In this document: positions 1-12,853 of the stretch, one piece after another | Layout: every line of letters begins with the position of its first letter | Numbering within the stretch: the stretch's first letter is position 1 | NCBI GenBank assembly: GCA_946408315.1 | Contig: CAMJRV010000027.1 | Coordinates: forward strand, 1-12,853 | Direction of reading: 5' to 3' | From: an uncultured Bacillota bacterium | GTDB lineage: Bacteria; Bacillota; Clostridia; Peptostreptococcales; Anaerovoracaceae | Length of the DNA stretch: 12,853 nt | Made by a program: the position numbers and the translations under genes | Notes under the pieces: model-generated | The model's database searches: none | Told to the model about the DNA's origin: nothing | The model's input: the letters and a program-made list of their open reading frames with translations, nothing else

Positions 1-1507
1 GGATAAAAAACTGACAAATGAGGTCGGCGCACCGGTTGCCGACAATGAAAACTCCATCACCGCCGGTCCCCGGGGCCCCGTGGTGATGCAGGATGTATGG
101 CTGATGGAGAAAATGGCCCACTTCAACCGCGAGGTCATTCCGGAACGCCGTATGCACGCCAAGGGCTGGGGAGCCTACGGCAATTTCACCGTCACAGGTG
201 ACATTTCACAGTTCACCAAGGCCAAGGTGCTGCAGCCCGGAGCAAAGACCGACGTATTCGTCCGCTTCTCCACAGTTGCAGGCGAACGAGGCGCCGCAGA
301 CTGCGAAAGGGACATCCGAGGCTTTGCCTGCAAGTTTTACACTGAGGAAGGCAACTGGGATCTGGTTGGAAACAACACGCCTACCTTCTTCATCCGCGAC
401 GTACATAATTTTTCCGACTTAAACCGCGCCGTCAAGCGCGATCCCCGTACCGGACGCCGTTCCGCCCAGAACAACTGGGATTTCTGGACGCTGCTGCCCG
501 AAACATTCCACCAGCGGACCATCGTCATGTCGGATCGCGGGATTCCCGCCTCCTTCCGTCATATGCACGTTTTCGGAGAGCATACCTTCAGCTTCTACAA
601 TGAAAACAACGAACGGGTATGGTGCAAGTTCCACCTGCATACCCAGCAGGGCATCAAGTGTCTGTCCAACGAGGAAGCCGCTGAGATCAACGGGATGGAC
701 CGCGAGTACCACGGCAAGGACCTTTACGAAGCGATTGAACGGGGCGACTATCCACGCTGGAAGATGTCCGTTCAGATCATGACGGAGGAACAGGCAAAGA
801 ACCACTACGAGAATCCGTTCGATATCACAAAGATCTGGCGTCATAAGGAATTCCCGCTGATCGAGGTGGGCGTTCTGGAACTCAACCGCAATCCCGAAAA
901 CTATTTTGCGGAGGTGGAGCAGTCTGCGTTCACCCCTGCTCATGTGGTGCCCGGCATCGGCTTTTCTCCCGACCGTTTCCTCCAGGGGCGTCTGTTCTCC
1001 TATGGCGACGCGCAGCGTTACCGCCTGGGCGTAAACCACAATCAGATACCGGTCAACCGCGCCCGGGTCGAGGTCAATGAGTACCACCGCGACGGAGCGA
1101 TGCGGGTGGATGGAAACTACGGCGGCATTCCTGCCTATTCCCCCAACAGCTACGGATACTGGACGGCCCAGCCTGAGGTTGCGGAGCCTCCTCTGGAGAT
1201 CGAGGGTGCGATGTGGCGTTACGATCCTAAGGACGACCCCACCGACGACAATTTCCGTGCCGGCGGCGACCTGTGGAGAATCCTGACCGAGGAGAAAAAA
1301 CAGATTCTCATCGGAAACACGGCGGCCGACATCGCTCCGGTAACCGTCAACATCAAGTACCGCCACGCGGTCCACTGCTATCTGGCCGATCGGGAATACG
1401 GCGAGCGCATGACCGAGGCTCTCGGTCTGAGCCTGGAAAAGGTGAAGGAACTCGCCAAGCTGGACAACAGGGGCCTGATCGAAGCCACACTGTCTCCGGA
1501 CATGTAA
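1..1507 (+). CDS. katA: Monofunctional haem catalase (5' end cut by window edge)
   Basis: Haem catalase that dismutates hydrogen peroxide to water and oxygen in the cytoplasm. The reading frame is open from base 2 and its first codons read [18 protein letters not shown], a typical catalase N-terminus. Base 1 is G, so the ATG almost certainly starts two bases before the window, which gives about 502 residues, the usual small-subunit length. Visible hallmarks are the distal histidine region [14 protein letters not shown] (His about 53), the [11 protein letters not shown] segment with the active-site asparagine (about 126), WDFW with LPETFHQ, and the proximal haem-ligand motif [16 protein letters not shown] with Tyr about 335. 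No truncation is seen at the C-terminus. perR follows after 27 bases with no terminator between, so the two are probably co-transcribed. The promoter lies outside the window. Family assignment is very secure; the katA symbol is by similarity. Confidence 0.96.
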
Positions 1508-1534
1508 AAAATCACAAAGGAAGGTTCTTCTCTC

Positions 1535-1924
1535 ATGAAGCAACTGCGAAATACCAGGCAGAGACAAATCGTGCTGGATACCGTTAAGGCCCACAGCGAT
1601 CATCCTTCTGCCGATCAGCTCTATCTGGACGTGCGGGCGCTTGATCCGAAGATCAGCCTGGGAACGGTCTACCGCAACCTGAAGGTTTTATCGAAACGCG
1701 GTGACATTCAGCATATCAACGTATCGGGAGTCGAACGCTTTGACTGGCGCTGCGACCCTCACGCTCATCTGATCTGCACCGAATGCGGTTCCCTGTGCGA
1801 CGCGCCGCTGCCCTATGATACGAAGCTGGACCAATTGCTGTCGGAGCAGACCGGATATGAGATCTCCTTTCATCGAACCGTCTTTGAAGGGCGCTGCCCG
1901 GCTTGTGTCAAAGGCCGGAAATAG
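1535..1924 (+). CDS. perR: PerR peroxide-sensing Fur-family repressor
   Basis: Fur-family metalloregulator of 129 residues with an N-terminal winged helix (about 1-65, with SLGTVYRNLKVL as recognition region) and a C-terminal metal-binding dimerisation domain. The regulatory metal ligands of Bacillus PerR have clear counterparts: His23 (in HPSADQ), Asp70 (RFD), His76 and His78 (PHAH), and Asp89 (five residues after the first CxxC). The structural zinc site is present as Cys81/Cys84 and Cys121/Cys124. The Asp at position 89, rather than Glu, is the feature usually used to tell peroxide-sensing PerR from iron-sensing Fur. In the known family, peroxide oxidises a histidine at the iron site and releases DNA, derepressing catalase and peroxidases. 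The start is set by AAAGGAAGG at 1516-1524, 10 bases upstream of the ATG. The position directly behind catalase supports the PerR call. The protein is somewhat shorter than typical PerR, mainly at the N-terminus. Confidence 0.92.
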   Translation: MKQLRNTRQRQIVLDTVKAHSDHPSADQLYLDVRALDPKISLGTVYRNLKVLSKRGDIQHINVSGVERFDWRCDPHAHLICTECGSLCDAPLPYDTKLDQLLSEQTGYEISFHRTVFEGRCPACVKGRK

Positions 1925-1946
1925 CGAAACTATAATAAACGGAACT

Positions 1947-1993
1947 ATAATAGGCAGACTATACAAGTATTTTATGTATGGTCTGCCTATTAT
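1947..1993 (+). repeat. Long inverted repeat after perR (possible terminator)
   Basis: Stem arms 1947-1965 and 1975-1993 pair over 19 positions with a single U.G wobble (1960/1980) and a 9-base loop. It starts 22 bases after the perR stop, so it may end katA-perR transcription or stabilise the message. There is no convincing U-run on either side, which is atypical for an intrinsic terminator. A 10-base direct repeat (aactataata at 1928-1937 and 1943-1952) runs into the left arm. A small mobile-element remnant is an alternative reading. The structure is certain; the function is not. Confidence 0.7.
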
Positions 1994-2062
1994 TCTTAAG
2001 GTCCGAAACGAATCTTCACCAAGTAACTAATATGGTTAAGTGTTCCTACTCCTGTAACACAT

Positions 2063-2068
2063 TATAAT
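2063..2068 (+). promoter_or_regulatory. Candidate -10 box for the downstream gene
   Basis: A consensus TATAAT lies 47 bases upstream of the start codon at 2115 in an AT-rich leader. No good -35 element is found at 16-18 bases spacing (the 2040-2045 segment is gtgttc). The change of base composition and the inverted repeat upstream suggest that the next gene has its own promoter, but this site is only a candidate. Confidence 0.35.
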
Positions 2069-2114
2069 ATCAGGAAATATACTGATTTATCAATAGTTAA
2101 GGGGGCCTTTACCC

Positions 2115-3290
2115 ATGGTGCAAAAGTTTAACTTCAACGAACAGTGCATTACATACAGCCAAATGAACATGATCTCTAATGCAAGATTATTCTGGAGAAG
2201 ATATACGACATGGATCAGAGTATATTTAATCAGCAGATATCTGGGATTAGGAACGGAAGAAGAAGCCTTTGACAGAATGTATTTTGAAACTTCCGGGATA
2301 GGAAACTTTCTGCAGATTTTATTCGAACTTCAAAGCTCAAATGAGATTTCTCAACAACTGAGTCAAATTACGATTTCTTTACGCGACCTCGTTACAGCTC
2401 AATTTCAAGGAGATACGGAAGCGATGAATCAAAGCGTTGATCGTTTATACCAAAACGCTGAGAATTTCGCAGTACTCCTATCTACAATTAATCCTTATAT
2501 AAATGAAGCAGAGTGGAAAAATATGATGAATTTATATATTCAGTATACCATTCAGCAAGCAAATTCTTTTGTAACCGGAAACTACAGTGAGGATATAGAA
2601 TTATTCAGGCGTCTTACAGAGCTGACGGACAGAATGGGAGAGATCTTTGCAGAGTCCATTTATAACTATATCAATTCCGGAGCGCAAGTCATACCATTGG
2701 ACGATCAGCAGTGTGTTACACTGGAACAGATGAATCAGATCTATATCATCAGAATGTTTTGGTTTGAACTCGTGACCTGGACCAGAGCTTATATGCTAAG
2801 CAGATATTTAAAAATCGGAAATGAAAATGAAATAATGGCTCGGTTAAGACAGGTTCCTGAAGAATATGTAGGAACTCTGAGACAGATATTTGGTGAAGGG
2901 ATCGAACCTTCCCTTCAGCTCATCAACGAATATATTGATTTGATCGACGCTTTAATTACTGCCCAAATTGAAAACGACACGGAAGAAATCGATAGAATCG
3001 TACAGCTTTTATATCAGAATGCCGACCAGAGAGCAGCTGTAGTAGCTTCAATCAATCCTTATTGGGATCAAAACGAATGGGAGAATCGATTGCGCAATCA
3101 CGTCAGCTATACGATTGATGAATCTGTAACCTTGCAAACCGGTGATTATGCAAGAAATTTAGATGTATTCAGGGCGCTGTTGGATCAGGCGGAAAGCGCC
3201 AGCGGTTATTATGCAAGAGGCATTTTTAGATACATTACGAGCCAACAGATGCAAATTCAGAAGTTAATTAAAACTTATGTCGGCAAATAA
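2115..3290 (+). CDS. Uncharacterised helical protein with two tandem copies of one domain
   Basis: A 391-residue protein of unknown function without signal peptide or membrane segment, rich in Gln, Asn, Ile and Tyr and probably almost entirely alpha-helical. Residues about 11-186 and 200-374 are two copies of the same domain, offset by 188-189 residues. Matching landmarks are Cys11/Cys200, FW at 26-27/215-216, TWxR at 32-35/221-224, SRYL at 40-43/229-232, LYQNA at 111-115/299-303, INPY at 125-128/313-316, EW at 133-134/321-322, and GNY/GDY at 155-157/343-345. From memory, single-domain proteins with the same TR..IS, NAD, INPYW and EW landmarks are common in Bacillus and Clostridia and are sometimes misnamed acetylglutamate kinase. 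No kinase motif is visible here. The start is set by AAGGGGG at 2099-2105. The gene is clearly AT-richer and uses AGA for arginine far more than the adjacent catalase does, which suggests separate ancestry. Confidence 0.85.
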   Translation: MVQKFNFNEQCITYSQMNMISNARLFWRRYTTWIRVYLISRYLGLGTEEEAFDRMYFETSGIGNFLQILFELQSSNEISQQLSQITISLRDLVTAQFQGDTEAMNQSVDRLYQNAENFAVLLSTINPYINEAEWKNMMNLYIQYTIQQANSFVTGNYSEDIELFRRLTELTDRMGEIFAESIYNYINSGAQVIPLDDQQCVTLEQMNQIYIIRMFWFELVTWTRAYMLSRYLKIGNENEIMARLRQVPEEYVGTLRQIFGEGIEPSLQLINEYIDLIDALITAQIENDTEEIDRIVQLLYQNADQRAAVVASINPYWDQNEWENRLRNHVSYTIDESVTLQTGDYARNLDVFRALLDQAESASGYYARGIFRYITSQQMQIQKLIKTYVGK

Positions 3291-3296
3291 CAAAGA

Positions 3297-3332
3297 GGCA
3301 AGCCTTTCAATATAGGGCTTGCCATTTTGTTA
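3297..3332 (+). terminator. Intrinsic terminator, probably bidirectional
   Basis: Stem 3297-3306 with 3314-3323 (ggcaagcctt / agggcttgcc) gives 10 pairs with one G.U and a 7-base loop. It is followed by attttgtta on the + strand. On the minus strand the stem is followed by tctttgttattt. It sits between the converging 391-residue gene and the zinc-ribbon gene, so it can serve both. Confidence 0.8.
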
Positions 3333-3362
3333 GCTTAGGTGCTATTGATCTCTGGCCGGAAA

Positions 3363-3611
3363 CTACCGTTCAAAATATTCTTTCCAGGCGGGAAGCATTC
3401 TCATGGCATCCTCAGCCTGCTTCGCAGCCGCCTTTTCGTCAAAGCCCTGCGTTCTGACGATAAATTCCGTCATACCGGCCTTCTTTTCTTCAAAGGATTG
3501 CATGGTGCCGTCGGGCCTCGCGCAATAGACGCAGTAATCTTTCTCCGGGTCTCCCCCGGCAAAGTCGGCGGCCTCCTTCATCGGCATACCGCAAGCAATA
3601 CAAGTTTTCAT
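3363..3611 (-). CDS. Small zinc-ribbon protein
   Basis: An 82-residue protein beginning MKTCIACGMPMKEAADF. Cys4/Cys7 and Cys27/Cys30 form two CxxC knuckles of a zinc ribbon, followed by a charged, probably helical C-terminal half (about 40-82). It resembles the 'putative zinc ribbon domain' family of small Firmicute proteins; no enzymatic function is known to me. The start is chosen at 3611, not at the in-frame ATG at 3617, because GGAGGT (3624-3619) is one base from the upstream ATG but seven from this one. It lies 18 bases after the TetR stop and is expected to be on the same transcript, so it may be an accessory or target of that regulator. Confidence 0.8.
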   Translation of the reverse strand: MKTCIACGMPMKEAADFAGGDPEKDYCVYCARPDGTMQSFEEKKAGMTEFIVRTQGFDEKAAAKQAEDAMRMLPAWKEYFER

Positions 3612-3629
3612 TTTCATTACCTCCTGTGT

Positions 3630-4211
3630 TCAGAATTGAATCAAATTCAAAAATGTTGATGTGAGTTCCGGACCGTACCGCAAAAGCAGCGGACCTTCCG
3701 GGGAAAAGGAGTCCTTATTCTGCAGGTAATAATGGACCAGCCCCAGCCAGGTGTTGAACGCCATATGGGAGGGAATTGCCTTTACCGTCCGATTTTTTAT
3801 TTCCCGATCCAGTACCTGACTGAAATGATAGGCCGCCGTCGTCTGAAGGCCTGCCAATATGGTCTGGGCATCTTCGGGAAGCAGGCTCTTTTCCGTGATG
3901 AGGCGGATATAAAAGTCCTCATACCGGCTCAGTATATCCAGATGCGACTTGAGCAGAGCTTCCATATCGCCGCTTTTTTCCGTCAGTTCATGCAGTTCAA
4001 GTCCCAGCCGGTCGGCAAAATCCTGGGTCAGGCAGGTCAGAAGTTCGTTCAGCGTCGGAAAGTGAACAAATACCGCCCCGTGAGATATTCCGGCCTCTTT
4101 GGCAATGGCGGCGGTGGCAGCGGTAAAGCCCTGGGCGGAATAGACCTGATACGCCGCTTCCATAATCCTCCTTCTCGTATTCTCCTTTTGAAGCTGCCGT
4201 TTCGACTCCAT
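3630..4211 (-). CDS. TetR/AcrR-family transcriptional repressor
   Basis: A 193-residue TetR-family regulator. The N-terminal helix-turn-helix covers about residues 12-55 (TRRRIMEAAYQVYSAQGF, then AAIAKEAGISHGAVFVHF), and the remaining ~135 residues form the variable helical ligand-binding and dimerisation domain. The ligand cannot be predicted. An in-frame ATG exists at 4229, but AAAAGGAG at 4226-4219 lies seven bases before the ATG at 4211 and overlaps the upstream codons, so 4211 is the better start. It is the first gene of a two-gene unit with the zinc-ribbon protein. A dyad operator covering its own transcription start (4233-4263) indicates autorepression. Confidence 0.9.
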   Translation of the reverse strand: MESKRQLQKENTRRRIMEAAYQVYSAQGFTAATAAIAKEAGISHGAVFVHFPTLNELLTCLTQDFADRLGLELHELTEKSGDMEALLKSHLDILSRYEDFYIRLITEKSLLPEDAQTILAGLQTTAAYHFSQVLDREIKNRTVKAIPSHMAFNTWLGLVHYYLQNKDSFSPEGPLLLRYGPELTSTFLNLIQF

Positions 4212-4232
4212 AGCGTGACTCCTTTTCATTAT

Positions 4233-4263
4233 ATGAGTAACAACTCACTGAGTTTATACTCAT
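4233..4263 (-). promoter_or_regulatory. 31-bp dyad operator for the TetR regulator
   Basis: Arms atgagtaacaactca (4233-4247) and tgagtttatactcat (4249-4263) match as an inverted repeat at 13 of 15 positions around one central base. Each arm is itself a near palindrome of the form TGAGT-N4-ACTCA, so two dimers could bind side by side. It overlaps the -10 box by two bases and extends over the expected transcription start, the classic layout for a TetR autorepression site. Binding by this particular protein is inferred. Confidence 0.75.
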
Positions 4264-4290
4264 TATAAGATGCTGATTCCGATCTGTCAA
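4262..4290 (-). promoter_or_regulatory. Consensus sigma-A promoter for the tetR-zinc-ribbon unit
   Basis: On the minus strand, TTGACA (4290-4285) and TATAAT (4267-4262) are separated by exactly 17 bases. Both boxes are perfect consensus. Transcription would start near 4255, giving an untranslated leader of about 44 bases. Such a strong promoter needs tight repression, in keeping with the overlapping operator. Confidence 0.88.
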
Positions 4291-4322
4291 GCAGAATAAT
4301 TCCTCTTCACCTGCTTTTTCTT

Positions 4323-5372
4323 TTATTTTTCCCGTTCCAACTGAAAGGTCACGCGCCAGTTTCCTTCCGTCCTCATGCCGGCGGTAACAAAATTGCCGTA
4401 CAGCTTGTATGCTGCAATTTCTTCTGCCGGGATATCGAAGACAGATTCGTGATAATCAACTCTGCCGGACTCTCCGGAACTGATGAAGTAGAGGCCATAG
4501 GCCTCATTGACGTCGTTGCCCTCCGCATCCTTCAAATAGAAGAAACCGTGGTTATCGTTTTCCAGGCGATTGGGAACAGCCGTCTGAACGTGAAGCCTTC
4601 CGTCAATATATCCGATCCCCGTCAGATCAATCCCATCTACGGGAAATTCCTTCATCGGCTGCCCAGGGACAAGGGTGTCCGCAGAAGATTCGTTCCAATG
4701 CTTTTCGTAGTACATTCCGCCGCCGCCGGACGCCGCCACTGTTTGCACCCTACCTCCTGCCGTGAACGACGGGAGGTCCACCGGGATCTCGATATTCTCA
4801 TAATAATTCTTATGGCTTAAAAATTCCCTTACGGAAAACGTTATTTTATCTCCCTCCATATTTCCGCTTCCCTGCTCCTGGATCATAATTAAGAAGGTCG
4901 CTGTCTTCGTCGCCTCATCATACTCCACAAGACGGCAGGATGCAGAACTGTCAAAAGCCCTGTTGATAGAATAGCTGTCATAAAGATCGGTCGAACTGTC
5001 GATACGATCTCCGGTCAGGTCCTGCATTGCAATATAGATTTCCGCGGTGTTTCCGTGGAGATAGGCGGATATCACTTCCATCCTGATTCCGTTATCATCA
5101 TCGGATTTCTGAACAGGTATGAAAAATTGCGCCGCCCCCGGAGAAATCTGATACAGGGCATGATAGGCGAAATCCGACGTGGCTGCCAGTGTCGGAGCGG
5201 CCACGGAAATGCAAAGGCAGATCAGGCCGGCGGCCGCGACGGGTTTGGGAATCAGACGAAAGATTTTTCTTTTTCTGGTCTCCGCATCATGTGCGGACTT
5301 CAGAACCTGATCCATCAGCTCAGGATCTGGAAAAATCTGATGATTCATATGCATATACTTTTCCCTAAACAT
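4323..5372 (-). CDS. Membrane-anchored DUF4179-type anti-sigma factor
   Basis: A 349-residue single-pass membrane protein. Residues 1-43 form a short charged cytoplasmic part, 44-64 a hydrophobic segment (PVAAAGLICLCISVAAPTLA), and the rest an extracytoplasmic domain. The segment after the membrane (SDFAYHALYQISPGAAQFFIPVQKS, then MEVISAYLHGNTAEIYI and LTGDRIDSSTDLYDSY) matches what I know of the DUF4179 family, usually encoded next to a sigma factor. The inferred role is to hold the sigma factor at the membrane until an envelope signal arrives. ATG at 5372 is chosen over GTG at 5375, with GGAGGAGGA at 5386-5378. It overlaps the sigma gene by eight bases (atgtttag), implying translational coupling. 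The cytoplasmic part is shorter than a classical zinc anti-sigma domain and no HxxxCxxC motif is present. Confidence 0.82.
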   Translation of the reverse strand: MFREKYMHMNHQIFPDPELMDQVLKSAHDAETRKRKIFRLIPKPVAAAGLICLCISVAAPTLAATSDFAYHALYQISPGAAQFFIPVQKSDDDNGIRMEVISAYLHGNTAEIYIAMQDLTGDRIDSSTDLYDSYSINRAFDSSASCRLVEYDEATKTATFLIMIQEQGSGNMEGDKITFSVREFLSHKNYYENIEIPVDLPSFTAGGRVQTVAASGGGGMYYEKHWNESSADTLVPGQPMKEFPVDGIDLTGIGYIDGRLHVQTAVPNRLENDNHGFFYLKDAEGNDVNEAYGLYFISSGESGRVDYHESVFDIPAEEIAAYKLYGNFVTAGMRTEGNWRVTFQLEREK

Positions 5373-5853
5373 CACAATCCTCCTCCAAAATATTCCTCAG
5401 CATCGCTCTCGCCCGGGTGAGCTGCGTCCTCACCGTAGACTTTTTCCGGTCGAGGATTTTTCCGATTTCTTCAACCGACAGGTCCTCATAGTAGAACAGG
5501 TGAATCACCTCGCGATATTTGGGCGCCAATTGCTGCAGCTCATGATGGAGATCTGCGTCTTCCCGCGTTTCAAAGCAAGGGGCTTCCTCTAAATATTCCA
5601 CCTTCCTTTTCCACCACGATCTCCAAAAATTTTTTGAGCAATTGATCGTCACCCGGATCAGCCACGCCTTGCGATGCTCCTCCGTCTGAAACAAGGGCCG
5701 CTTTTTGACGTATCGCAGAAACACTTCCTGAAAGACGTCGTCCGCGTCATTTTTGCTTCCCGTCCGGGCGAAAGCGAGACGGTAAACCATATTGGAATAA
5801 AATCTGATCACGTGATCCGGGCAATTATCTCCAAGCAACGGTTGTCGTTCCAT
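5365..5853 (-). CDS. ECF-type RNA polymerase sigma factor
   Basis: A 162-residue sigma-70 family protein with only regions 2 and 4. Region 2 covers about 16-80 (YRLAFARTGSKNDADDVFQEVFLRYV, then KAWLIRVTINCSKNFWRS, which carries the -10 recognition helix). Region 4 covers about 105-158 (LAPKYREVIHLFYYEDLSVEEIGKIL, then STVRTQLTRARAML, the -35 recognition helix). Region 1 and most of region 3 are absent, as expected for ECF factors. AAAGGAGGA lies eight bases upstream of the ATG. It is the first gene of a pair with the membrane anti-sigma protein. The signal and regulon cannot be deduced. Confidence 0.92.
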   Translation of the reverse strand: MERQPLLGDNCPDHVIRFYSNMVYRLAFARTGSKNDADDVFQEVFLRYVKKRPLFQTEEHRKAWLIRVTINCSKNFWRSWWKRKVEYLEEAPCFETREDADLHHELQQLAPKYREVIHLFYYEDLSVEEIGKILDRKKSTVRTQLTRARAMLRNILEEDCDV

Positions 5854-5911
5854 TATCCGAATCCTCCTTTTATCATGAACACTCCTGAGAGATGGAAAAG
5901 GCTACAGGATT

Positions 5912-5940
5912 ATTATAATATATAAAAAAGAATATATAAA
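5912..5940 (-). promoter_or_regulatory. Candidate promoter of the sigma/anti-sigma pair
   Basis: On the minus strand TATAAT (5917-5912) stands 17 bases from TTTATA (5940-5935), in a very AT-rich stretch directly behind the kinase-operon terminator. The -35 box is weak. No obvious ECF-type AAC/CGT boxes were found, so autoregulation by the sigma factor is not evident. Confidence 0.4.
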
Positions 5941-5968
5941 AAAAATAGCGCGTAATCAAACACGCTAT
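5937..5968 (-). terminator. Intrinsic terminator of the transporter-kinase operon
   Basis: On the minus strand the stem ATAGCGTG (5968-5961) and CGCGCTAT (5952-5945) has eight pairs with one G.U, an 8-base loop, and a run of eight T directly behind it (5945-5938, the first T shared with the stem). It lies 17 bases after the kinase stop codon and marks the end of the operon. Confidence 0.9.
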
Positions 5969-5984
5969 CGATGCTCTTTTTCTG

Positions 5985-7463
5985 CTACAGGATCGTCTTA
6001 AACGCAGGATAAATTTTCAGGTAACGGCTGTACAGCCGGTGATACCGCTCCGTATTCTCCGGATTCGGCATATAGCATACCCTTTCACAGGAATCGAGGA
6101 GCGAATTGACATAGGACGCGTAGTCCGGGATTCTGCCCTGCGCAACCAGGGCTGCCCCTGCGATTGCGGCGGCAGGCAGGTATTCCGCGCCGCTGTATAC
6201 GGTGATCTTATGTCCCAGAACGTCTGCAAGAATCTGACACCACGCCGTCACCTTTGCACCTCCGCCGATCAGCGATATTTTCCGGGGCGTCCGTCCGATG
6301 CTCTCCAGTCCCTGGCGGATGGAGAAGGCGACGCCTTCCAGTACGCTCCCTGCCAGGTCTTGTCTGGTCGTTTCCGCCGTAATCCCAATGTAGCCGCCCT
6401 TGATATCCGTATCCATGACCGGAAAACGTTCGCCGACCAGGTAGGGGAGGAACAGTACTCCGTTGCTTCCGGCCACTCTTTGGGAAAGCAATCGGTTCAA
6501 ATGCTCATATTTGTCCGCCGAATCGGACTCAGGGGCGAGAATTCCGCTGATCCACTTATGCACATTTCCCGCATTGAGGAACGGTACCACGTTGATATAA
6601 AGCCCCTTCTGCATGGCCGCCAGGTTGAAAACCTCCGGCTTTGCCATAATATCCGAAGCGACACAGGCAATCCAGCCCGAGGTTCCCAGATTGATGTTAA
6701 ATTCCCCGTCATGGGCAATTCCGCTGGCAAGGGTCGTAGCCCCCGCGTCGCCGGTACCGGCGTAAACCGGGGTGCCCTCTGCAAAGCCCGTCTCTTCCGA
6801 CGCTTTGAGAGTGACAGTCCCCACCGGTTCTTCCGCATAGCGGATTTCCGGCAGCTTCTCTCCATCCAGACCGATTTTTTCCATCCAGTCCAGATTCCAG
6901 CATTTTTTATGAATATCCATCAGTCCCGCCGTCGAAGCCGAAGTGACGTCTGTGGTGAATTGTCCCGTCAGCCTGGCATTCACATAATCCTTGGAGCTGA
7001 TCAGAACCTTTTCCGCGGCATGGTAGAGAGCCGGCTCCTCTTCCTTCATCCAAAGCAGCTTTGGAAACGGCATAGAACCGTCGAAATGGTTTCCGGTGCT
7101 CGCCACAATCTCTTCCATGCCGATGCGTCCGGCAATCTCCCGGGCCTGGGCTTCCGCCCTGCCGTCAGAATAAAGAATCGCGTTGCAGGCGGGGCTCAAA
7201 TCCCCCGCAACCGGGATCAAGTCCTGCATCTGACCGCTCATAGCGATCCCGCTCACCTCGCCGGGCTGCAAACCTTCCTCAAAAAAGTAATTTGAAATTT
7301 CACAGAAAGCGGAATACCAGTCCAGAGGGCGCTGCTCCTTATCATCTCCCCGAAACAGGGTTTCCAGGGTGACGCTTTTCTCCATGACACTCTTTCCGTC
7401 CGACGACATCAGCACCCCTTTTACCGCAGTCGTTCCGATATCATAAGTCGCAATATAACTCAT
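5985..7463 (-). CDS. FGGY-family carbohydrate kinase, xylulokinase/LsrK-like
   Basis: A 492-residue kinase of the FGGY family, which phosphorylates ketoses, polyols or related compounds with ATP. The N-terminal half carries the phosphate-1 motif DIGTTAVKG (8-16), the substrate loop SGQMQDLIP (76-84) and LYSDGRA (97-103). Catalytic aspartate 239 lies in TGDAGATT, followed by the NLGTSGW loop (258-264). The C-terminal half has EGVAFSIRQGLE (376-387) and the adenosine motif GGGAKVTAWCQILADVLG (400-417). Length and motif order fit xylulokinases, but canonical xylulokinase has GQMHG where this one has GQMQD, so the substrate need not be xylulose. It is the last gene, nine bases after the TrpA-like gene, with AGAGGA just before the ATG. 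With the SorC regulator and transporter upstream, an autoinducer-2-kinase-like or polyol kinase role is plausible. Confidence 0.92.
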   Translation of the reverse strand: MSYIATYDIGTTAVKGVLMSSDGKSVMEKSVTLETLFRGDDKEQRPLDWYSAFCEISNYFFEEGLQPGEVSGIAMSGQMQDLIPVAGDLSPACNAILYSDGRAEAQAREIAGRIGMEEIVASTGNHFDGSMPFPKLLWMKEEEPALYHAAEKVLISSKDYVNARLTGQFTTDVTSASTAGLMDIHKKCWNLDWMEKIGLDGEKLPEIRYAEEPVGTVTLKASEETGFAEGTPVYAGTGDAGATTLASGIAHDGEFNINLGTSGWIACVASDIMAKPEVFNLAAMQKGLYINVVPFLNAGNVHKWISGILAPESDSADKYEHLNRLLSQRVAGSNGVLFLPYLVGERFPVMDTDIKGGYIGITAETTRQDLAGSVLEGVAFSIRQGLESIGRTPRKISLIGGGAKVTAWCQILADVLGHKITVYSGAEYLPAAAIAGAALVAQGRIPDYASYVNSLLDSCERVCYMPNPENTERYHRLYSRYLKIYPAFKTIL

Positions 7464-7472
7464 TCTATCCTC

Positions 7473-8246
7473 TCACTTTCCTCTCACTTTTTCTACCGCT
7501 GCGGAAAGCCCCTCTATAAAAGAGGTCAGTTCCTCCTGGGAACGGTTCAGCTTCGCCATCATCGCCGTTCCGATGATCACGCCGTCAAAGCCGCTTTCCA
7601 GAAGCTGCGCCGCCCGCTCGGCGGTATTGATTCCGAAACCTGCGAATACCTTGATATCCGCATGCTTCTTTGCCCGGGCAAGAATTTCTTCATAGTCGGT
7701 CGTTTCCACCGACATTCCTGTGGGCCCCGCATAAAGCTGCTGATAAACCAAAGGGAACGCGTCGAAACAGGCTTCCTGCTCTTCCGGGTTCATTTCCGGA
7801 TCGACAAAACCCATAACGTCGACGCCATACGGCCGAAGCTCCTCAAGCAGCTCCAGCCGCCGCTCAAGCGGAATGCCGGGGACCACGAAAGCGTCCGCCA
7901 GTCCGCGCTGTGCAAGCAATCGATAGAATCCCGAATCAATCAGATCTTCCTGATATGCCATGATCCAGATGGGAGCATTCACCGCAGCCCTTATTTTCTC
8001 CCAATAACCGAGATCTGTCTGTATGGTAAGGTCCACAAGGGAATGGGCGTTCCGGATCACCTCGCCGTCCGCAGCCGGATTTCGGGACGGATATCCGATC
8101 TCAAAGATATCCAGTCCTGCCTCTTCACAGCCTGTCAGCAGGGGCAGGAAGCCCTCCTTTTCGGGAAAACCGGCCAGCAGATAGCCGACGGAAAGCTTCT
8201 CCCTTTCAAGATAAATGCGATTTCGCTCTGATGCAAGTTTTTTCAT
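7473..8246 (-). CDS. TrpA-like (beta/alpha)8 enzyme, probable stand-alone lyase or isomerase
   Basis: A 257-residue homologue of tryptophan synthase alpha subunit. The opening strand VGYLLAGFPEKEG, FEIGYPSRNPAADGEVI (48-64), PIWIMAYQEDL (92-102), VVPGIPLE (121-128), GPTGMS (174-179) and FAGFGINTAER (201-211) align in order with TrpA. Glu49 and Asp60, the catalytic pair, are kept at the same numbers as in the enterobacterial enzyme, and the glycine-rich phosphate loops (GFGI, IIGTAMM) are present. Asp56, which contacts TrpB, is Asn56, and the aspartate of TrpA's VPDxP (Asp130) is Gly124. No trpB or other tryptophan gene is nearby. Its ATG overlaps the permease stop (ATGA), and the kinase gene follows after nine bases. 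It is therefore probably a repurposed enzyme acting on the phosphate product of the kinase, for example retro-aldol release of glyceraldehyde 3-phosphate. That reaction is inference. Confidence 0.85.
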   Translation of the reverse strand: MKKLASERNRIYLEREKLSVGYLLAGFPEKEGFLPLLTGCEEAGLDIFEIGYPSRNPAADGEVIRNAHSLVDLTIQTDLGYWEKIRAAVNAPIWIMAYQEDLIDSGFYRLLAQRGLADAFVVPGIPLERRLELLEELRPYGVDVMGFVDPEMNPEEQEACFDAFPLVYQQLYAGPTGMSVETTDYEEILARAKKHADIKVFAGFGINTAERAAQLLESGFDGVIIGTAMMAKLNRSQEELTSFIEGLSAAVEKVRGK

Positions 8247-9196
8247 TTCGCGTCACCACGGCCAATCTTCTGAACAACCACCGCCAGAATGATGATGCAT
8301 CCCGTAAGCAGGTCCTGCATGAAGGTAGGAACTTGCATAATCGTAAGGCCGTTTGCCAGAATTCCAAGAATCGCAGCCCCCACGAAGGTTCCCCAGATAT
8401 TCGGGACCCCTTCCTTAAAGACGGTCCTCCCGAGGAATGCGGCCGCATACGCCTGAAGGAACAGTCCGTCCCCTCCCGTAGGATGAGCGGAGCCCAATCT
8501 GGAAGCCATCAGAACTCCCGTCAAGGCCGCCAGCGCCGCGCATAATGCAAAGGCCATATTTTTATGAAACGTCACAGGAATCCCTGAGATCTGGGACGCC
8601 GTTTCATTGCCGCCGATGGCGTAGAGCTTTCTCCCAAAGGAGGTGTGCCGCATGACGAACCAGAAAAGCACGGTCAGAAAAATCATGATCAGTGACAGCA
8701 AAGGCAGGCTGAACAAGCTTTTCGTCCCGATAAAGGTGAAGCTTCTCGGAATGTTCTCAAAAATGGTGGCGCCGCCGGTAAACCAGAAGGTAAAGCCCCC
8801 GAGGATCGTGCTCATGGCCAGCGTCGTAATGAAAGAGAGCACCCGGAACTTCGTTACGATCCAGCCGTTTAAAAGCCCGATCACAAAGCATATGGCTACC
8901 GGGAAAACAAAGCACAGGAGCATCGGCATACCTGACACAGCCATCCTTGCCGCCACCACGCCTCCAAGGCTTGCCATAGCGCCTACAGAGAGGTCGAACT
9001 CCTCCACCGACATGACGAGAGTAGCTCCCAGCGCGATGACGACGAGGAGCGAAATCTGCCTCGTGATATTGATAAAGTTTCCGAATGTAAAGAAGGCGTC
9101 AAAGCTCAGAATACTAAATGCAATAACGATGATAATACCGGCGAAAATGGTGCCGTATGCCCTCATAAAGTCGGCAAGCTTTCTATTTTTATCCAT
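8243..9196 (-). CDS. RbsC/LsrC-type ABC transporter permease
   Basis: A 317-residue integral membrane protein of the ribose/autoinducer-2 class of sugar permeases (BPD_transp_2 family). It has many hydrophobic segments, with clear ones near 15-35, 48-65, 90-112, 120-140, 160-182, 212-232, 265-285 and 293-310. Family motifs are ATLVMSVEEFDLSVGAMASLGG (58-79), the ATPase-coupling loop FGRKLYAIGGNETASQISG (187-205), and AYAAAFLGRTVFKEGVPNIWG (249-269). GGGGGA lies seven bases upstream of the ATG, and the gene follows the ATPase gene by 15 bases. Only one permease is encoded, so the channel is expected to be a homodimer as in RbsC systems, unlike the LsrC/LsrD pair of enterobacteria. The glutamate pair in the first motif replaces the more usual glycine pair (GGIDLS). 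Confidence 0.93.
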   Translation of the reverse strand: MDKNRKLADFMRAYGTIFAGIIIVIAFSILSFDAFFTFGNFINITRQISLLVVIALGATLVMSVEEFDLSVGAMASLGGVVAARMAVSGMPMLLCFVFPVAICFVIGLLNGWIVTKFRVLSFITTLAMSTILGGFTFWFTGGATIFENIPRSFTFIGTKSLFSLPLLSLIMIFLTVLFWFVMRHTSFGRKLYAIGGNETASQISGIPVTFHKNMAFALCAALAALTGVLMASRLGSAHPTGGDGLFLQAYAAAFLGRTVFKEGVPNIWGTFVGAAILGILANGLTIMQVPTFMQDLLTGCIIILAVVVQKIGRGDAK

Positions 9197-9211
9197 AATT
9201 TATTCCCCCAA

Positions 9212-10693
9212 TCAGTCAGCATAACAGCAGGCAAGCACCTGCTCCGCCGTTAACCCGTCGTTTGCAAAAAGTTCCTTCGTCTTCCCGCCTGCCATAATCA
9301 AAACGTTATCCGCCACCTCAAGCATTTCCTTCAGATCGGAGGAAACGAATACCACGGCATTTCCATCGTCGGCCCTCTTGCGCAGAAGCTTATGTATCTC
9401 CTGCCGGGTCTTTACGTCCACCGCCTGGGTCGGCTCGTCACACAGCAACACCTTCGGCTCCGACAACAGCGCCTTTGCAAAGACCACCTTCTGCTGATTG
9501 CCTCCGGAGAGCTGCAAGACCGGCTGCTTCGGTCCTTCCGTCTTGATGCTCAGTCTGTCGATCTGATCCCGGGCATCGCTGACTTCCTTCTTCTCATCGA
9601 CCACCCCAAAGCGCGCATAATGATCTATCGTTGAAAGTACAATATTCTGTTTTACATTCAGTGAGCCGACCAGGGCTTTTCCCCTTCTGTCCTCACTGAT
9701 CAGCACAACGCCCTGTTTCAGAGAGTTGGCTGGGGAAGCTTTCCCCACCGGTTTATGATCGATGGCAACCGTCCCGCCCGCGACGGACCGGTGACCGTAA
9801 ACACATTCCAGCAGCTCTGTCCGTCCGCTGCCTCCAAGGCCGAAGATGCCCAGAATCTCTCCCGCGCGGGCGTTAAAGCTGGCATCCTTTATGATCCCGT
9901 CTCTGGACGAGAGATGTGCCACATCCAGCCGACTGCCTCCGAATTGCCGCGCCGTCTTCATCTTTTCGCTGACCCAATTATCGGTCATCATTGAAATAAT
10001 CTGCTCTTTATTCACATCTGCCGTCTGTACCGTATTCACCAACTGTCCGTTTTTAAATACCGTGATGCGGTCTGTGAGTCGAAAAATTTCATCCATCCGG
10101 TGAGTTACGTATAGGATAGAAGTGCCTTTTTTCTTAAGCCCCTCGATGGTTTCAAACAGCATCTCCGCTTCCCGGTCCGTAAGGGAGGCTGTCGGTTCGT
10201 CGAGAATCAGCAGCCTAGATCGCGTCATCATCGCCCTGACGATCTCCAGCATCGTCTTCTGTGGAGGGGTCAGCAAGGCTGCGGGGATATTTAAATCGAT
10301 GTCGATACCCAATTCCTCCATTACCGCCGTCACCCTCTGCTTCATCTTTTTCCAGTCGACGGCAACGCCTCCCTTCTTTTCGTAGGGGAGACCGAGAAAC
10401 ACGTTTTCGATCCCATTAAAAGAAGGAACCAGATTCCTGTCCTGATGGATTACGTTGATCCCCAAATCCCGGCTCTGACAGGGGTTATGAATCTCAGCCG
10501 GATTGCCTTCCCAGAGGATTTCGCCGCTGTCAAGGCGGTATACTCCTGTCAAAATTTTAATCAGGGTAGATTTTCCCGCGCCGTTTTCTCCGACAAGCCC
10601 GAGAACTTCCCCGTTTTCTATCTCAAAATCAATATCCTTCAGTGCATAGATACCGCCAAACTGTTTGCACAGTTTTTTTGTCTGCAAAAGCAT
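9212..10693 (-). CDS. RbsA/LsrA-type double ABC ATPase
   Basis: A 493-residue ATPase with two fused nucleotide-binding domains, which energises sugar-type ABC import. Domain 1 has Walker A GENGAGKS (35-42), a degenerate signature LTPPQKTM (140-147), Walker B LLILDEP (161-167) and His198. Domain 2 has an atypical Walker A GLGGSGRT (285-292, Arg for Lys), signature LSGGNQQ (395-401) and Walker B VLLCDEP (415-421). Degeneration of one site per half is normal in the RbsA/MglA class. The start is set at ATG 10693 because GGGAG (10706-10702) is eight bases away. In-frame GTG 10702 and ATG 10699 are too close to it or overlap it. A strong hairpin (10713-10745) lies just upstream, between this gene and the binding-protein gene. 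Confidence 0.94.
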   Translation of the reverse strand: MLLQTKKLCKQFGGIYALKDIDFEIENGEVLGLVGENGAGKSTLIKILTGVYRLDSGEILWEGNPAEIHNPCQSRDLGINVIHQDRNLVPSFNGIENVFLGLPYEKKGGVAVDWKKMKQRVTAVMEELGIDIDLNIPAALLTPPQKTMLEIVRAMMTRSRLLILDEPTASLTDREAEMLFETIEGLKKKGTSILYVTHRMDEIFRLTDRITVFKNGQLVNTVQTADVNKEQIISMMTDNWVSEKMKTARQFGGSRLDVAHLSSRDGIIKDASFNARAGEILGIFGLGGSGRTELLECVYGHRSVAGGTVAIDHKPVGKASPANSLKQGVVLISEDRRGKALVGSLNVKQNIVLSTIDHYARFGVVDEKKEVSDARDQIDRLSIKTEGPKQPVLQLSGGNQQKVVFAKALLSEPKVLLCDEPTQAVDVKTRQEIHKLLRKRADDGNAVVFVSSDLKEMLEVADNVLIMAGGKTKELFANDGLTAEQVLACCYAD

Positions 10694-10712
10694 TCTCATC
10701 ACTCCCTATATC

Positions 10713-10745
10713 GAAGTAGGTTCCGGTACCCCCGAAACCTACTTC
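10713..10745 (-). other. Intercistronic mRNA hairpin between binding-protein and ATPase genes
   Basis: Arms 10713-10726 and 10732-10745 pair over 14 positions with one U.G and a five-base loop. On the transcribed minus strand no U-run follows, so it is not a normal intrinsic terminator. It begins 23 bases after the binding-protein stop codon, and its foot is six bases from the ATPase ribosome binding site. Such hairpins commonly protect the upstream message from 3' decay and let the binding protein be made in excess over the membrane complex. That role is inferred here. Confidence 0.75.
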
Positions 10746-10768
10746 ATTTTGCGACTCCTTCTGGGACT

Positions 10769-11722
10769 CTACTCTTTTGTTATGATGGTGGCAGGCGCGT
10801 ACTGCTCGCCCTTTGTGATTTCTTCACCGTTGAACAGCTTCGTCATTTCAGTCACGACGATTTCCGCCATTCCTTCAAAGTTCTGCGCTACGGTTGCTTT
10901 CAGGTTGGTTCCCTGATTGATCATCTCGACAGCCTGGCTGTTTCCGTCCACGCCTACGACCATGACCTCATTTCTCCCCGCATCCTGCAAAGCCTGTGTC
11001 GCTCCGATAGCCGGTTCGTCCCATGCACACCATACTGCGGTGATGGAATCCTTGCCCGAGTTGGAGAGGATCAGGTTCTCCATTACCTTCCGGGAGTTTT
11101 CGATCGGTCCCGGCACCTCGATGTGCTGTTCCGTGATCAGTTTAATATCGGGATAGTCCTTTAAAATCGTGTCAAATGCGGTGCATCTCTTCGCTACGCC
11201 CGGATGAGGACGGTGAGTCAGCGCGATGACCGTTCCCTTGCCTCCCATGAGATCGTCAAAGAGATACTTGGTAATCATTTCACCCATCGCCGCGTTATCG
11301 CTGGTCGCATTTACCATCATGCCGTCGACAAATCCGCTGTCGCAGCCGAACACCGGGATTCCGGCGTCAAAAGCACTCTGAAGCTGAGTCGCCACCTGAG
11401 TGGGGTCTGCGCTGACCAGTACGATGGCGTCTGCCTTCGACGAAACCGTATCTTCGATCCTGCTGGCAAGCTGAGCGAAGTCACCTTTCGTATCGACGAC
11501 GGTAACGACCATTCCCTGCGCTTCCATCCCCGCTTTCATTTCCTCGACCATCTGATTTGTCGTGACCGAGCTGAGATAAGGGGTGAGCAGAGAGACCTTT
11601 TTCCCCGAAGGTCCGTTTGATTCATCGGAAGATGAATCGCCGCCGGACGAAGCCCCGCCTCCGCAGGCAACCATCGAGAAAATCAAAACTCCTGTTAAAA
11701 CCAACATTAAAAATCTTTTCAT
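10769..11722 (-). CDS. Sugar-type ABC substrate-binding lipoprotein
   Basis: A 317-residue binding protein of the periplasmic-binding-protein type I class (RbsB/LsrB-like). Residues 1-20 are a lipoprotein signal with lipobox SMVAC, so Cys20 would be lipidated and the protein tethered outside the cell. A Ser/Gly/Asp linker covers 21-40. The mature domain shows family landmarks: VSLLTPYLSSVTTNQMVEEMKAG (43-65), ADAIVLVSADP (97-107), IPVFGCDSG (122-130), NATSDNAAMGE (138-148), AVWCAWDEPAIGA (229-241), VVGVDGN (255-261) and VAQNFEGMAE (278-287). The substrate is likely a sugar, polyol or furanosyl-type signal such as AI-2, but cannot be fixed from sequence. GGAGGAGGA lies at 11736-11728. The gene follows the SorC regulator by 26 bases. 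Confidence 0.93.
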   Translation of the reverse strand: MKRFLMLVLTGVLIFSMVACGGGASSGGDSSSDESNGPSGKKVSLLTPYLSSVTTNQMVEEMKAGMEAQGMVVTVVDTKGDFAQLASRIEDTVSSKADAIVLVSADPTQVATQLQSAFDAGIPVFGCDSGFVDGMMVNATSDNAAMGEMITKYLFDDLMGGKGTVIALTHRPHPGVAKRCTAFDTILKDYPDIKLITEQHIEVPGPIENSRKVMENLILSNSGKDSITAVWCAWDEPAIGATQALQDAGRNEVMVVGVDGNSQAVEMINQGTNLKATVAQNFEGMAEIVVTEMTKLFNGEEITKGEQYAPATIITKE

Positions 11723-11748
11723 TTTTTTCCTCCTCCTGATTGAAACAT

Positions 11749-12690
11749 TTATTCTGCTATTTCACGAGCAGTATCCAGACTCGTTATGAATACGTCCAGA
11801 TATCCGCTCGACAACGCCGCCTTGATGGCTTCCACCTTGCTCTGACCAATCGCCAGGGCGATGGTTCTGCTTTTTTTCAACTGTCCCAGTGTCACGCCGA
11901 TCGACCTTTCATTCAGTTCCGTCTCGATCATCTTTCCCTGCGCGTCCAAATAGGACGTACAGACAGACGCAACGGCTCCCGCCTCTTTCAGCCTCCTGAT
12001 ATCCTCATTATCCAGGGTGCCTGCCTTCACCGTAGAGGAGTTCATATTGAGCTGGCCGATCCCTACAATCGTCACATCACAGGAAGCGCCCTTCTGAAGT
12101 ACGGCAGCGATTTCAGGTTCCCGGACCAGAATATCGCGCGACTGCCTGCCCTGCACGATGACAGGCGCGTTCAGGACATAACAGCGCCCTCCCGAGCATT
12201 CCGCCAGACGCTGGGCGATGACATTCGCGTGCCAGCTGGCGCTGATGGCGCCCATCCCGCCTACCAGAGGAACGAACTCCAGACCCCTGCGGTTCAGGCA
12301 TTTGATGGAGCTTGCCAGACTGCTTATGGTTCGGCCGCTCATCACGCCCACGCGGTTATGGTCCATAATGTAGGCGTCGATGCAATCCGCCGCCAGCCTG
12401 CCGAATTCCTCCAGCTCACTGTTCGAATCTCCCGCCTTGCCTGTGTTCAGAACCAGCGCATCCTTCAACCCGTAACGCTCCATCAGGATGCGTTCCAGCC
12501 TTGTTTCATCCAGAAACGGGTTGTTGATTTTGATTGAGACGACATTGTTGTTCCGGGCATTCGACAGCATACGGCTTATCTGAGGACGGGAAATCCCAAG
12601 CTGGGATGAAATTTCCTTTTGGCTCAGGTTCTGCTCATAATACAGCTGACAAACCTTCAGAGTCATTCTTAAATTATCGGTAATGGCCAT
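11749..12690 (-). CDS. SorC-family (LsrR/DeoR-like) transcriptional regulator
   Basis: A 313-residue SorC-family regulator. The N-terminal helix-turn-helix is at about 22-45 (LSQKEISSQLGISRPQISRML). The remaining ~255 residues form the sugar-phosphate-binding domain, with GVMSGRT, EFVPLVGGMG, a central VGIGQLN and the final GYLDVFITSLDTA (the family usually ends in VLITD near here). Members such as LsrR, SorC and Bacillus DeoR respond to the phosphorylated product of the pathway they control. GGGAGGA lies five bases before ATG 12690. The upstream in-frame GTG 12708 has no such site and is rejected. As first gene of the operon it probably autoregulates through sites at 12705-12735 and 12790-12807. 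Confidence 0.92.
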   Translation of the reverse strand: MAITDNLRMTLKVCQLYYEQNLSQKEISSQLGISRPQISRMLSNARNNNVVSIKINNPFLDETRLERILMERYGLKDALVLNTGKAGDSNSELEEFGRLAADCIDAYIMDHNRVGVMSGRTISSLASSIKCLNRRGLEFVPLVGGMGAISASWHANVIAQRLAECSGGRCYVLNAPVIVQGRQSRDILVREPEIAAVLQKGASCDVTIVGIGQLNMNSSTVKAGTLDNEDIRRLKEAGAVASVCTSYLDAQGKMIETELNERSIGVTLGQLKKSRTIALAIGQSKVEAIKAALSSGYLDVFITSLDTAREIAE

Positions 12691-12704
12691 AGGTTCCTCC
12701 CTTT

Positions 12705-12735
12705 GCACATTTGTTCAATACCGCAATTTTGTTCA
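12705..12735 (-). promoter_or_regulatory. Two 13-bp direct repeats, candidate SorC-regulator half-sites
   Basis: On the minus strand TGAACAAAATTGC (12735-12723) and TGAACAAATGTGC (12717-12705) match at 11 of 13 positions and are 18 bases apart in register. They lie in the leader between the candidate promoter and the regulator gene. TGAACAAAAT is close to the half-site I recall for Bacillus DeoR, a member of the same family. Repression by roadblock or loop formation is inferred. Confidence 0.6.
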
Positions 12736-12740
12736 GCTCC

Positions 12741-12769
12741 ATATTATCACCGTAAGATTTCAGAGTAAA
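12741..12769 (-). promoter_or_regulatory. Candidate promoter of the SorC-ABC-TrpA-like-kinase operon
   Basis: On the minus strand TTTACT (12769-12764) and TAATAT (12746-12741) are 17 bases apart. An overlapping alternative -10 is GATAAT (12748-12743) with a shifted -35. Both boxes deviate from consensus, fitting a regulated promoter. It lies between the upstream palindrome and the direct repeats. Confidence 0.5.
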
Positions 12770-12789
12770 CTGTTTTTTCACTGCAAGCC

Positions 12790-12807
12790 GTCGAAATTAA
12801 TTTCAAC
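12790..12807. promoter_or_regulatory. 18-bp near-perfect palindrome upstream of the operon promoter
   Basis: gtcgaaattaatttcaac reads the same on both strands except at one symmetric pair. It lies about 20 bases upstream of the candidate -35 box. The TTGAA...TTCRA ends resemble the palindromic operator of the SorC-family DeoR protein, so it may be the primary regulator site that works with the two downstream half-sites. Confidence 0.5.
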
Positions 12808-12833
12808 ATAAAAAGAACGCTGAATTTCAGCGT
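12807..12833 (-). terminator. Intrinsic terminator of an upstream minus-strand gene outside the window
   Basis: On the minus strand the stem ACGCTGAA (12833-12826) and TTCAGCGT (12824-12817) is followed by TCTTTTTATG. The eight-base arms are separated by a single base, so about six pairs with a five-base loop are realistic. It insulates the SorC operon from whatever lies upstream on the same strand. Confidence 0.75.
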
Positions 12834-12853
12834 CCTTCGTATTGGATCATCGC

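Follow-up and report, generated by a model that had tools for sequence, protein, structure and literature searches.

What does an operon do that sets an enzyme of the tryptophan synthase alpha (TrpA) family between a sugar-type importer and a sugar-type kinase? The question is raised by contig CAMJRV010000027.1 of an uncultured Bacillota bacterium of the family Anaerovoracaceae (assembly GCA_946408315.1), of which positions 1 to 12,853 were analyzed (hereafter, the window). Our answer, to which we give an even chance of being right, is that the operon recovers indole from a polyol conjugate, for which indole-3-glycerol, the dephosphorylated form of indole-3-glycerol phosphate, is the simplest candidate.

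Organization and conservation of the operon

The operon comprises six open reading frames (ORFs), all co-directional on the minus strand. It begins with a SorC/DeoR-type regulator (11749..12690; PF04198, SorC-type sugar-binding), followed by a CUT2 substrate-binding lipoprotein (10769..11722; PF13407) with a lipobox-like start, MVACGG, read by eye; the double ATPase of the importer (9212..10702; two PF00005 stretches), which resembles xylose, arabinose, and ribose ATPases; and a single CUT2-type permease (8243..9196; PF02653), which is ribose-permease-like and falls under every listed NCBIfam equivalog cut-off. The last two genes encode the TrpA-like barrel enzyme (7473..8246; 257 amino acids; PF00290), a proposed stand-alone lyase, and an FGGY-family kinase (5985..7463; 492 amino acids; FGGY_N/FGGY_C, PF00370/PF02782), a proposed indole-polyol kinase with the invariant motif Ser-Gly-Gln-Met-Gln-Asp. 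From regulator to kinase, the intergenic gaps are 26, 66, 15, -4, and 9 bases, the negative value being an ATGA overlap of the permease and TrpA-like genes, and a terminator-like hairpin with a T run (5969-5944, minus strand) lies just 3' of the kinase gene. The ORF positions and Pfam families bear out the first-pass annotation, which had described a six-gene minus-strand operon with short gaps, the overlap, and a terminal hairpin.

Relatives were found by running a profile of 40 aligned TrpA-like proteins (A1) against one genome per species, which gave 114 relatives, the best 80 of which were kept. Among these, 28 related loci (L025-L052) showed at least 40% identity to the query, the next group reaching at most 33%; their hosts are Clostridia, Anaerolineaceae, and Spirochaetes. 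Together with the window, they represent 29 distinct genomes (G016 being the same as G077, and G055 the same as G074), 27 of which have the operon. The ATPase, permease, TrpA-like, and kinase genes are consecutive on one strand in 26 of the 28 loci, including L049, where a run of N interrupts the ATPase and permease genes; because the same order recurs so widely, it is not a product of chance. The binding-protein gene is present in 24 loci (the L043 and L048 records start inside the ATPase gene and are hence uninformative), and the window's binding protein shares 53-91% identity with those of 14 relatives among the aligned loci. A SorC gene occurs in 18 loci, being divergent in L036 and L051, 3' of the kinase in L050, and present without the operon in L046.

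A profile search (A3) of 66 genomes detected a kinase orthologue (736-839 bits) in four, which are exactly the operon carriers among the 66, the next protein scoring 334 bits. The two loci from which the operon is absent are L033 (Tepidibacter) and L046, and the same profile search found no kinase orthologue in their genomes (G069 and G082) despite the TrpA-like gene. The first-pass annotation had named separation of the two genes in other genomes as grounds for abandoning its reading, and the survey did not bear this out, both being kept together in 26 of the 28 loci. In L040 (Clostridium vitabionis, 10001-12307) and L042 (7925-10165), the TrpA-like and kinase genes form one open frame, whose product contains Trp_syntA, FGGY_N, and FGGY_C domains; such fusion is strong evidence that the two proteins act at consecutive steps. 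The operon is an old functional unit.

Wider sampling placed the TrpA-like gene in few genomes. In the window's order, it was found in 6 of 393 sampled genomes, none of them new (G651, G695, and G631 are G067, G068, and G069). In a class sample of 393 genomes, it was found in G000 and G372 (the genome of L028), the profile having been run on 43 genomes, chosen for two or more TrpA matches, for a TrpA score of intermediate strength, or for having TrpA but no TrpC.

The two operon-less loci have their own surroundings. At L046 (2-4042), the TrpA-like gene lies between the SorC gene and an ATP-binding cassette (ABC) importer nearest to PhnT2/PhnU2 (2-aminoethylphosphonate type), far below cut-off. 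An importer of an already phosphorylated compound would make the kinase needless, although a single genome gives only a hint of this. The TrpA-like gene of L033 (Tepidibacter mesophilus, 2940-3722) stands alone, flanked by a hexapeptide acetyltransferase-like gene and by one that, as judged by eye, is phosphoglycerate-mutase-like.

The TrpA-like protein as a separate family

The TrpA-like protein scored 111.1 bits against PF00290, above the gathering cut-off of 27, and fell short of the TrpA equivalogs TIGR00262 (96.1 bits, cut-off 102.35) and NF009621 (101.1 bits, cut-off 234); for comparison, the true TrpA of L034 reached 294.8 bits with TIGR00262. The protein is thus a member of the TrpA family, yet is not called tryptophan synthase alpha. 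PF00290 scores fell into two classes, 288-305 bits for true TrpA and 73-137 bits for TrpA-like proteins; G065 has one further match, at 91 bits, that is assigned to neither.

Phylogenetic analysis of 107 rows separated 28 TrpA-like rows (27 distinct proteins, as that of the window was entered twice) from 79 true TrpA rows, of which the distant ones had been thinned (1/3), by a branch with a Shimodaira-Hasegawa-like approximate likelihood ratio test (SH-aLRT) value of 100. L022 (88 amino acids) and the fusions L040 and L042 were skipped by length, and a program warning noted that L065, a long row, joins the TrpA-like branch. The TrpA-like proteins neither group with true TrpA nor adjoin trpB as a rule, their constant neighbor being the kinase. 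With a clade of its own and a separate true TrpA in 15 of the 29 TrpA-like genomes, the protein is a TrpA paralogue, as the first-pass annotation had claimed. The second outcome that the annotation had set as refuting, a TrpA-like protein placed within true TrpA in genomes with no other trpA, did not arise.

Residues were counted in 113 true TrpA rows and in 68 rows of TrpA-like proteins, 28 from the loci and 40 from A1, some of which are the same protein. Tyr98, Tyr168, Gly177, Phe204, Gly205, and Gly226, which we take to belong to the TrpA indole pocket and phosphate site, are common to both groups, and Trp94, Gln170, Leu171, Tyr172, and Ala202 are specific to the TrpA-like proteins. Position 56, presumably at the TrpB interface, is Asp in 112 of the 113 true TrpA rows and variable in the TrpA-like ones; if its placement is correct, this variability would fit an enzyme released from its partnership with TrpB. 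AlphaFold2 modeled the TrpA-like protein with confidence, at a predicted local distance difference test (pLDDT) score of 96.2. At the catalytic positions, Glu49 is kept in 68/68 TrpA-like rows and Asp60 in 67/68; excerpts of PMC9100643 state that these two residues matter for catalysis in Salmonella TrpA.

Tryptophan genes of the carrier genomes

TrpC and TrpD are rare in the carrier genomes. True TrpA was found in 15 of the 29 genomes and TrpB over cut-off in 16, with TrpC in four and TrpD in the same four, so that TrpC over cut-off was not seen in 25. Eleven of the 15 TrpA-bearing operon genomes have trpBA without TrpC or TrpD over cut-off, and G074 has trpB alone. In the class comparison (393 genomes), 181 genomes had strong TrpA, 179 of them with TrpC and two without; this count left out five genomes with middling TrpA scores, none of which has TrpC and one of which is the operon genome G372. 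The TrpC deficit of carriers relative to the class gave a Fisher p value of 3e-13, a figure that ignores relatedness. Since TrpC-less carriers with completeness figures are nearly complete (G067, 96%, as G651; G068, 94%, as G695; G016, 97%), the deficit is not due to incompleteness. Relatedness is accounted for in part by a true-TrpA tree of 49 rows (15 carriers and 34 non-carriers of established TrpC status, out of the 181), on which the TrpC-less carriers require at least four changes on supported branches and seven on the best tree.

Among the 13 genomes without TrpB over cut-off, seven, the window's own included, have a protein that scores 139-157 bits against the TrpB model. The window genome's protein exceeds both TrpB2-type cut-offs, and those of two further genomes share 68-69% identity with it. 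In all, 23 of the 27 operon genomes have a TrpB or TrpB2-like protein; neither was found in G063, G065, G069, G082, G083, or G084, of which G069 and G082 also lack the operon.

We also considered that the true TrpA of the trpC-less genomes might be catalytically dead through replacement of Asp60 by Glu. This was rejected, as Glu occurs at this position in 51 of the 113 true TrpA rows (Clostridia), TrpC-bearing genomes included.

trpBA adjacency, leaders, and a putative operator

The tryptophan genes that remain often lie beside the operon. In 6 of the 11 TrpC-less TrpA carriers, trpBA is no more than about 2 kb away, upstream in three and downstream in three; no such link was seen in the window itself. 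Eight of the 11 carry TGG (Trp) within a common specifier context in the leader before trpB, as does G074, the specifier place being judged by eye. TGG was not seen in the G066 and G081 stretches, and in G067 the T-box motif was absent and the specifier unscanned.

The binding-protein genes of L034 (Flexilinea, G070) and L050 (G086) are immediately preceded by trpBA, itself headed by a T-box or T-box-like leader. In G081, trpA and then the front of a binding-protein gene reach a contig edge, and the operon contig starts inside such a gene, the middle being unseen. On the other side of the operon, the kinase gene of G073 (L037) is immediately followed, within one contig, by a T-box-like leader and the first part of trpB, the remaining trpB and trpA lying on another contig. 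In G067, the kinase is split across two contig ends (query residues 1-338 and 337-491) and is followed by trpBA. The operon and trpBA contigs of G068 share an exact 99-base end, and trpB begins about 2 kb past the kinase, the interval holding a T-box-like leader as well as some small genes.

The palindrome GAAATTAATTTC has a single exact copy in the window (12793..12804, unstranded), before the SorC gene, and 18 copies in 15 of the 28 loci, always at the operon head, where base composition predicts 0.056 copies in 411,123 bases; it was not found in 98 control loci (960,222 bases). As the window and L050 were where this palindrome was initially noticed, the real test lies in the remaining 14 loci. 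We propose it as a putative SorC operator on the basis of this distribution. L034 lacks the palindrome, and its trpA/binding-protein gap (6033-6218) encodes a 33-residue SorC tail, which shares 58% identity with the C-terminus of SorC from the window. The regulator gene has apparently been replaced by the T-box-trpBA block, and given the SorC remnant and the lost operator, the operon seems to have switched from substrate to tryptophan control. L050 has a TTGACA/TATAAT promoter and two operators ahead of the binding-protein gene, so transcription of the operon may be independent there.

A different transporter was observed in L140 (G074; 5741-12132, minus strand), where a TGG T-box and the lone trpB lie just 3' of a second, distinct CUT2 sugar-type ABC system. 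This system is possibly another importer of an indole conjugate.

Proposed pathway

Gene content and order, fusions, residues, the TrpC deficit, adjacency, leaders, and the operator motif were read from the genomes; the ligand, the kinase and lyase reactions, and the SorC effector we infer as follows. The lipoprotein and CUT2 importer would take up an indole-polyol. The FGGY kinase would phosphorylate its terminal hydroxyl to give indole-3-glycerol phosphate, which the TrpA-like enzyme, with its retained active-site residues, would split without TrpB into indole and glyceraldehyde 3-phosphate. A TrpB or TrpB2-type enzyme encoded elsewhere could then join indole and serine to tryptophan, the triose phosphate presumably entering glycolysis. 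The SorC protein would act at GAAATTAATTTC, presumably sensing a phosphorylated intermediate. Indole-3-glycerol is the simplest compound for this route because a glycerol/xylulose-type kinase, and then a TrpA-type lyase, adjoins trpBA. Tryptophan-pathway mutants release indole-3-glycerol. We hold more tentatively, at somewhat less than an even chance, that the operon is a TrpC-independent entry by which excreted indole-3-glycerol is imported, phosphorylated by a new FGGY kinase, and split by a new TrpA-family lyase.

Several points weigh against the salvage of indole-3-glycerol. A phylogeny-corrected pair test (five pairs; mean 2.4 for, 0.1 against, 2.5 equal) was underpowered and not significant, and the genomes with downstream trpBA (G073, G067, and G068) form one clade on the TrpA tree, so that the downstream arrangement counts as a single event. 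Of the T-boxes read by motif, Rfam with its standard cut-off recognized just those of L034, L140 (G074), and L142 (G077), and left the other six uncalled. Four of the 27 operon genomes (G063, G065, G083, and G084) showed no TrpB or TrpB2-like protein, and four others possess TrpA, TrpB, TrpC, and TrpD all together; tryptophan salvage is therefore not the sole use of the operon, unless the assemblies of the former are incomplete. In the window's own genome (67% complete), neither true trpA nor trpB was over cut-off, just the TrpB2-type protein.

Further objections concern the enzyme and its substrate. The true TrpA of 15 genomes could itself split indole-3-glycerol phosphate, so the TrpA-like protein either duplicates this activity there or acts on a different substrate, and the five TrpA-like-specific residues could reflect a different ring or side chain. 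According to excerpts of PMC9100643, TrpA of E. coli and Salmonella has no stand-alone lyase activity; membership in the TrpA family by itself therefore does not confer it. Membranes are passable to free indole (excerpts of PMC11085991), which would make import of a conjugate unnecessary for trpBA-only cells. Natural uptake of indole-3-glycerol was not found in the open-access literature among the matches listed.

Alternative explanations

An unlikely alternative is plain sugar or polyol catabolism, in which a pentulose or polyol is imported and phosphorylated, the TrpA-like protein is an aldolase or epimerase for the resulting phosphate, and the tryptophan link is a by-product of auxotrophy. 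The transport, kinase, and regulator families are typical of sugar operons, the binding protein is nearest the ribose type, and the best kinase model is XylB (TIGR01312), which the kinase matches at 319.3 bits, below the cut-off of 380.25; the four operon genomes without any TrpB type also suit this explanation. Sugar aldolases of TrpA-like fold generally require lysine or metal, and the invariant TrpA-like columns include Glu49 and Asp60 but neither lysine nor histidine. Sugar catabolism also leaves unexplained why trpBA lies near the operon in 6 of the 11 trpC-less TrpA carriers and why a T-box took the place of SorC in L034.

The substrate might instead be another indole conjugate, a ring-substituted indole-glycerol or one with a longer C3 side chain, whose phosphate true TrpA cannot split, so that a second TrpA-family enzyme is kept. 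Trp94, Gln170, Leu171, and Tyr172 of the TrpA-like protein and its coexistence with true TrpA in 15 of the 29 genomes both speak for such a compound. We nevertheless regard it as improbable, since no named natural compound of this kind is known as imported and indole-3-glycerol takes fewer assumptions.

It is very unlikely that the kinase acts on an imported Amadori compound to remake carboxyphenylamino-deoxyribulose phosphate, with the TrpA-like protein also replacing TrpC. This would account for the missing TrpC and for the affinity of the kinase to a ketopentose kinase model, and one haloarchaeal TrpC model does match the TrpA-like protein, weakly, at 21.8 of 380 bits; however, the TrpA catalytic residues are kept, and PF00218 is not among the Pfam matches of the TrpA-like protein.

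The first-pass annotation had likened the operon to the lsr system for autoinducer-2, with the TrpA-like protein in place of LsrF/LsrG. The functional set is the same, but the scores make an lsr-type system highly improbable: the LsrK model asks for 528 bits and the kinase reached 127.6, LsrR asks for 486 and the regulator reached 114.4, the best regulator model being DeoR NF053881 at 211 bits of the 420 needed, and there is a single permease gene. LsrB is absent from the 15 NCBIfam families matched by the binding protein, and neither LsrF nor LsrG was found among the window proteins scanned (10 with Pfam, 7 with NCBIfam). The lsr likeness accordingly falls away. Of the broader proposal in that annotation, import, phosphorylation, and TrpA-type cleavage stand, upheld by the conserved operon, the two fusions, and the retained active site; the link to tryptophan genes, which it had missed, points to an indole compound and away from a signal or plain sugar.

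That the TrpA-like protein is the genome's own drifted trpA, as its being the sole PF00290 match in the window's 67% complete genome might suggest, can be dismissed, being already refuted by its coexistence with true TrpA in 15 of the 29 genomes and contradicted by its separate clade and by a constant neighbor that is the kinase and not trpB.

Other features of the window

The start of the SorC gene was set at the ATG at 12690, behind AAGGGAGGAA, a good ribosome site, which looks better than the GTG at 12708 given as the start in the ORF list. An Rfam scan of the window returned one match, at chance level. An extracytoplasmic function (ECF) sigma factor gene (5365-5853, minus strand) is followed by one for a 350-residue protein without a Pfam match (4323-5375, minus strand), perhaps its anti-sigma partner. 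A perfect TTGACA-17-TATAAT promoter (4290-4262, minus strand) stands ahead of a TetR gene. Farther away, 2115-3290 (plus strand) encodes a 391-residue protein that by eye consists of two alike halves of about 190 residues each and has no Pfam or NCBIfam match; beside it are catalase-like and Fur/PerR-like genes, identified by eye alone.

Comparison with known systems

The operon shares with lsr a SorC-family regulator, a CUT2 importer, and an FGGY kinase. It is not orthologous to lsr by the model cut-offs, and has one permease gene where the lsr operon has two permeases, LsrC and LsrD. XylB and the ribose/xylose CUT2 systems are the nearest families to its kinase, ATPase, permease, and binding protein, but the scores lie below the equivalog cut-offs, an isomerase gene is absent here, and a TrpA-like enzyme is added.

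For the enzyme, the closest parallels are the stand-alone lyases, namely plant BX1 and IGL and the TrpA of Corynebacterium glutamicum, in which a TrpA-family barrel releases indole without TrpB, as proposed here. Excerpts of PMC9100643 and PMC12727527 describe stand-alone lyases of the TrpA family in plants and a C. glutamicum TrpA that acts alone too and retains Glu49 and Asp60. These lyases act on endogenous indole-3-glycerol phosphate, whereas here the gene adjoins an importer and a kinase, and TrpC over cut-off is unseen in 25 of 29 genomes. BX1 is no nearer to the TrpA-like proteins than ordinary TrpA is (58 bits versus up to 101).

For the pathway, the parallels are the trpBA-only or trpB salvage bacteria, whose TrpB uses indole not derived from their own TrpC. 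The trpRBA genes of Chlamydia trachomatis serve indole salvage. In Bifidobacterium, according to excerpts of PMC11085991, indole is salvaged likewise, and TrpB makes tryptophan from indole that is not of its own TrpC. Free indole is taken up in such bacteria, whereas the transporter, kinase, and lyase described here would deliver it from a polar conjugate.

The open-access literature yielded neither a TrpA-like enzyme paired with an FGGY or sugar kinase nor cross-feeding by indole glycerol, and among the matches listed for indole-3-glycerol kinase or uptake, indoleglycerol, indole salvage, and T-box-trpB there was no such system. If our reading is true, it adds an indole-polyol nutrient and a kinase activity not found described in that literature, explains tryptophan synthesis in some trpBA-only anaerobes lacking TrpC, and provides for cross-feeding by a pathway intermediate in bacteria that have lost the chorismate-to-indole steps. 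The clade, currently named tryptophan synthase alpha by several sources, would then be reassigned, and bacteria would have a new way of making tryptophan. The families of the parts are known, and their combination and the proposed substrate appear to be new.

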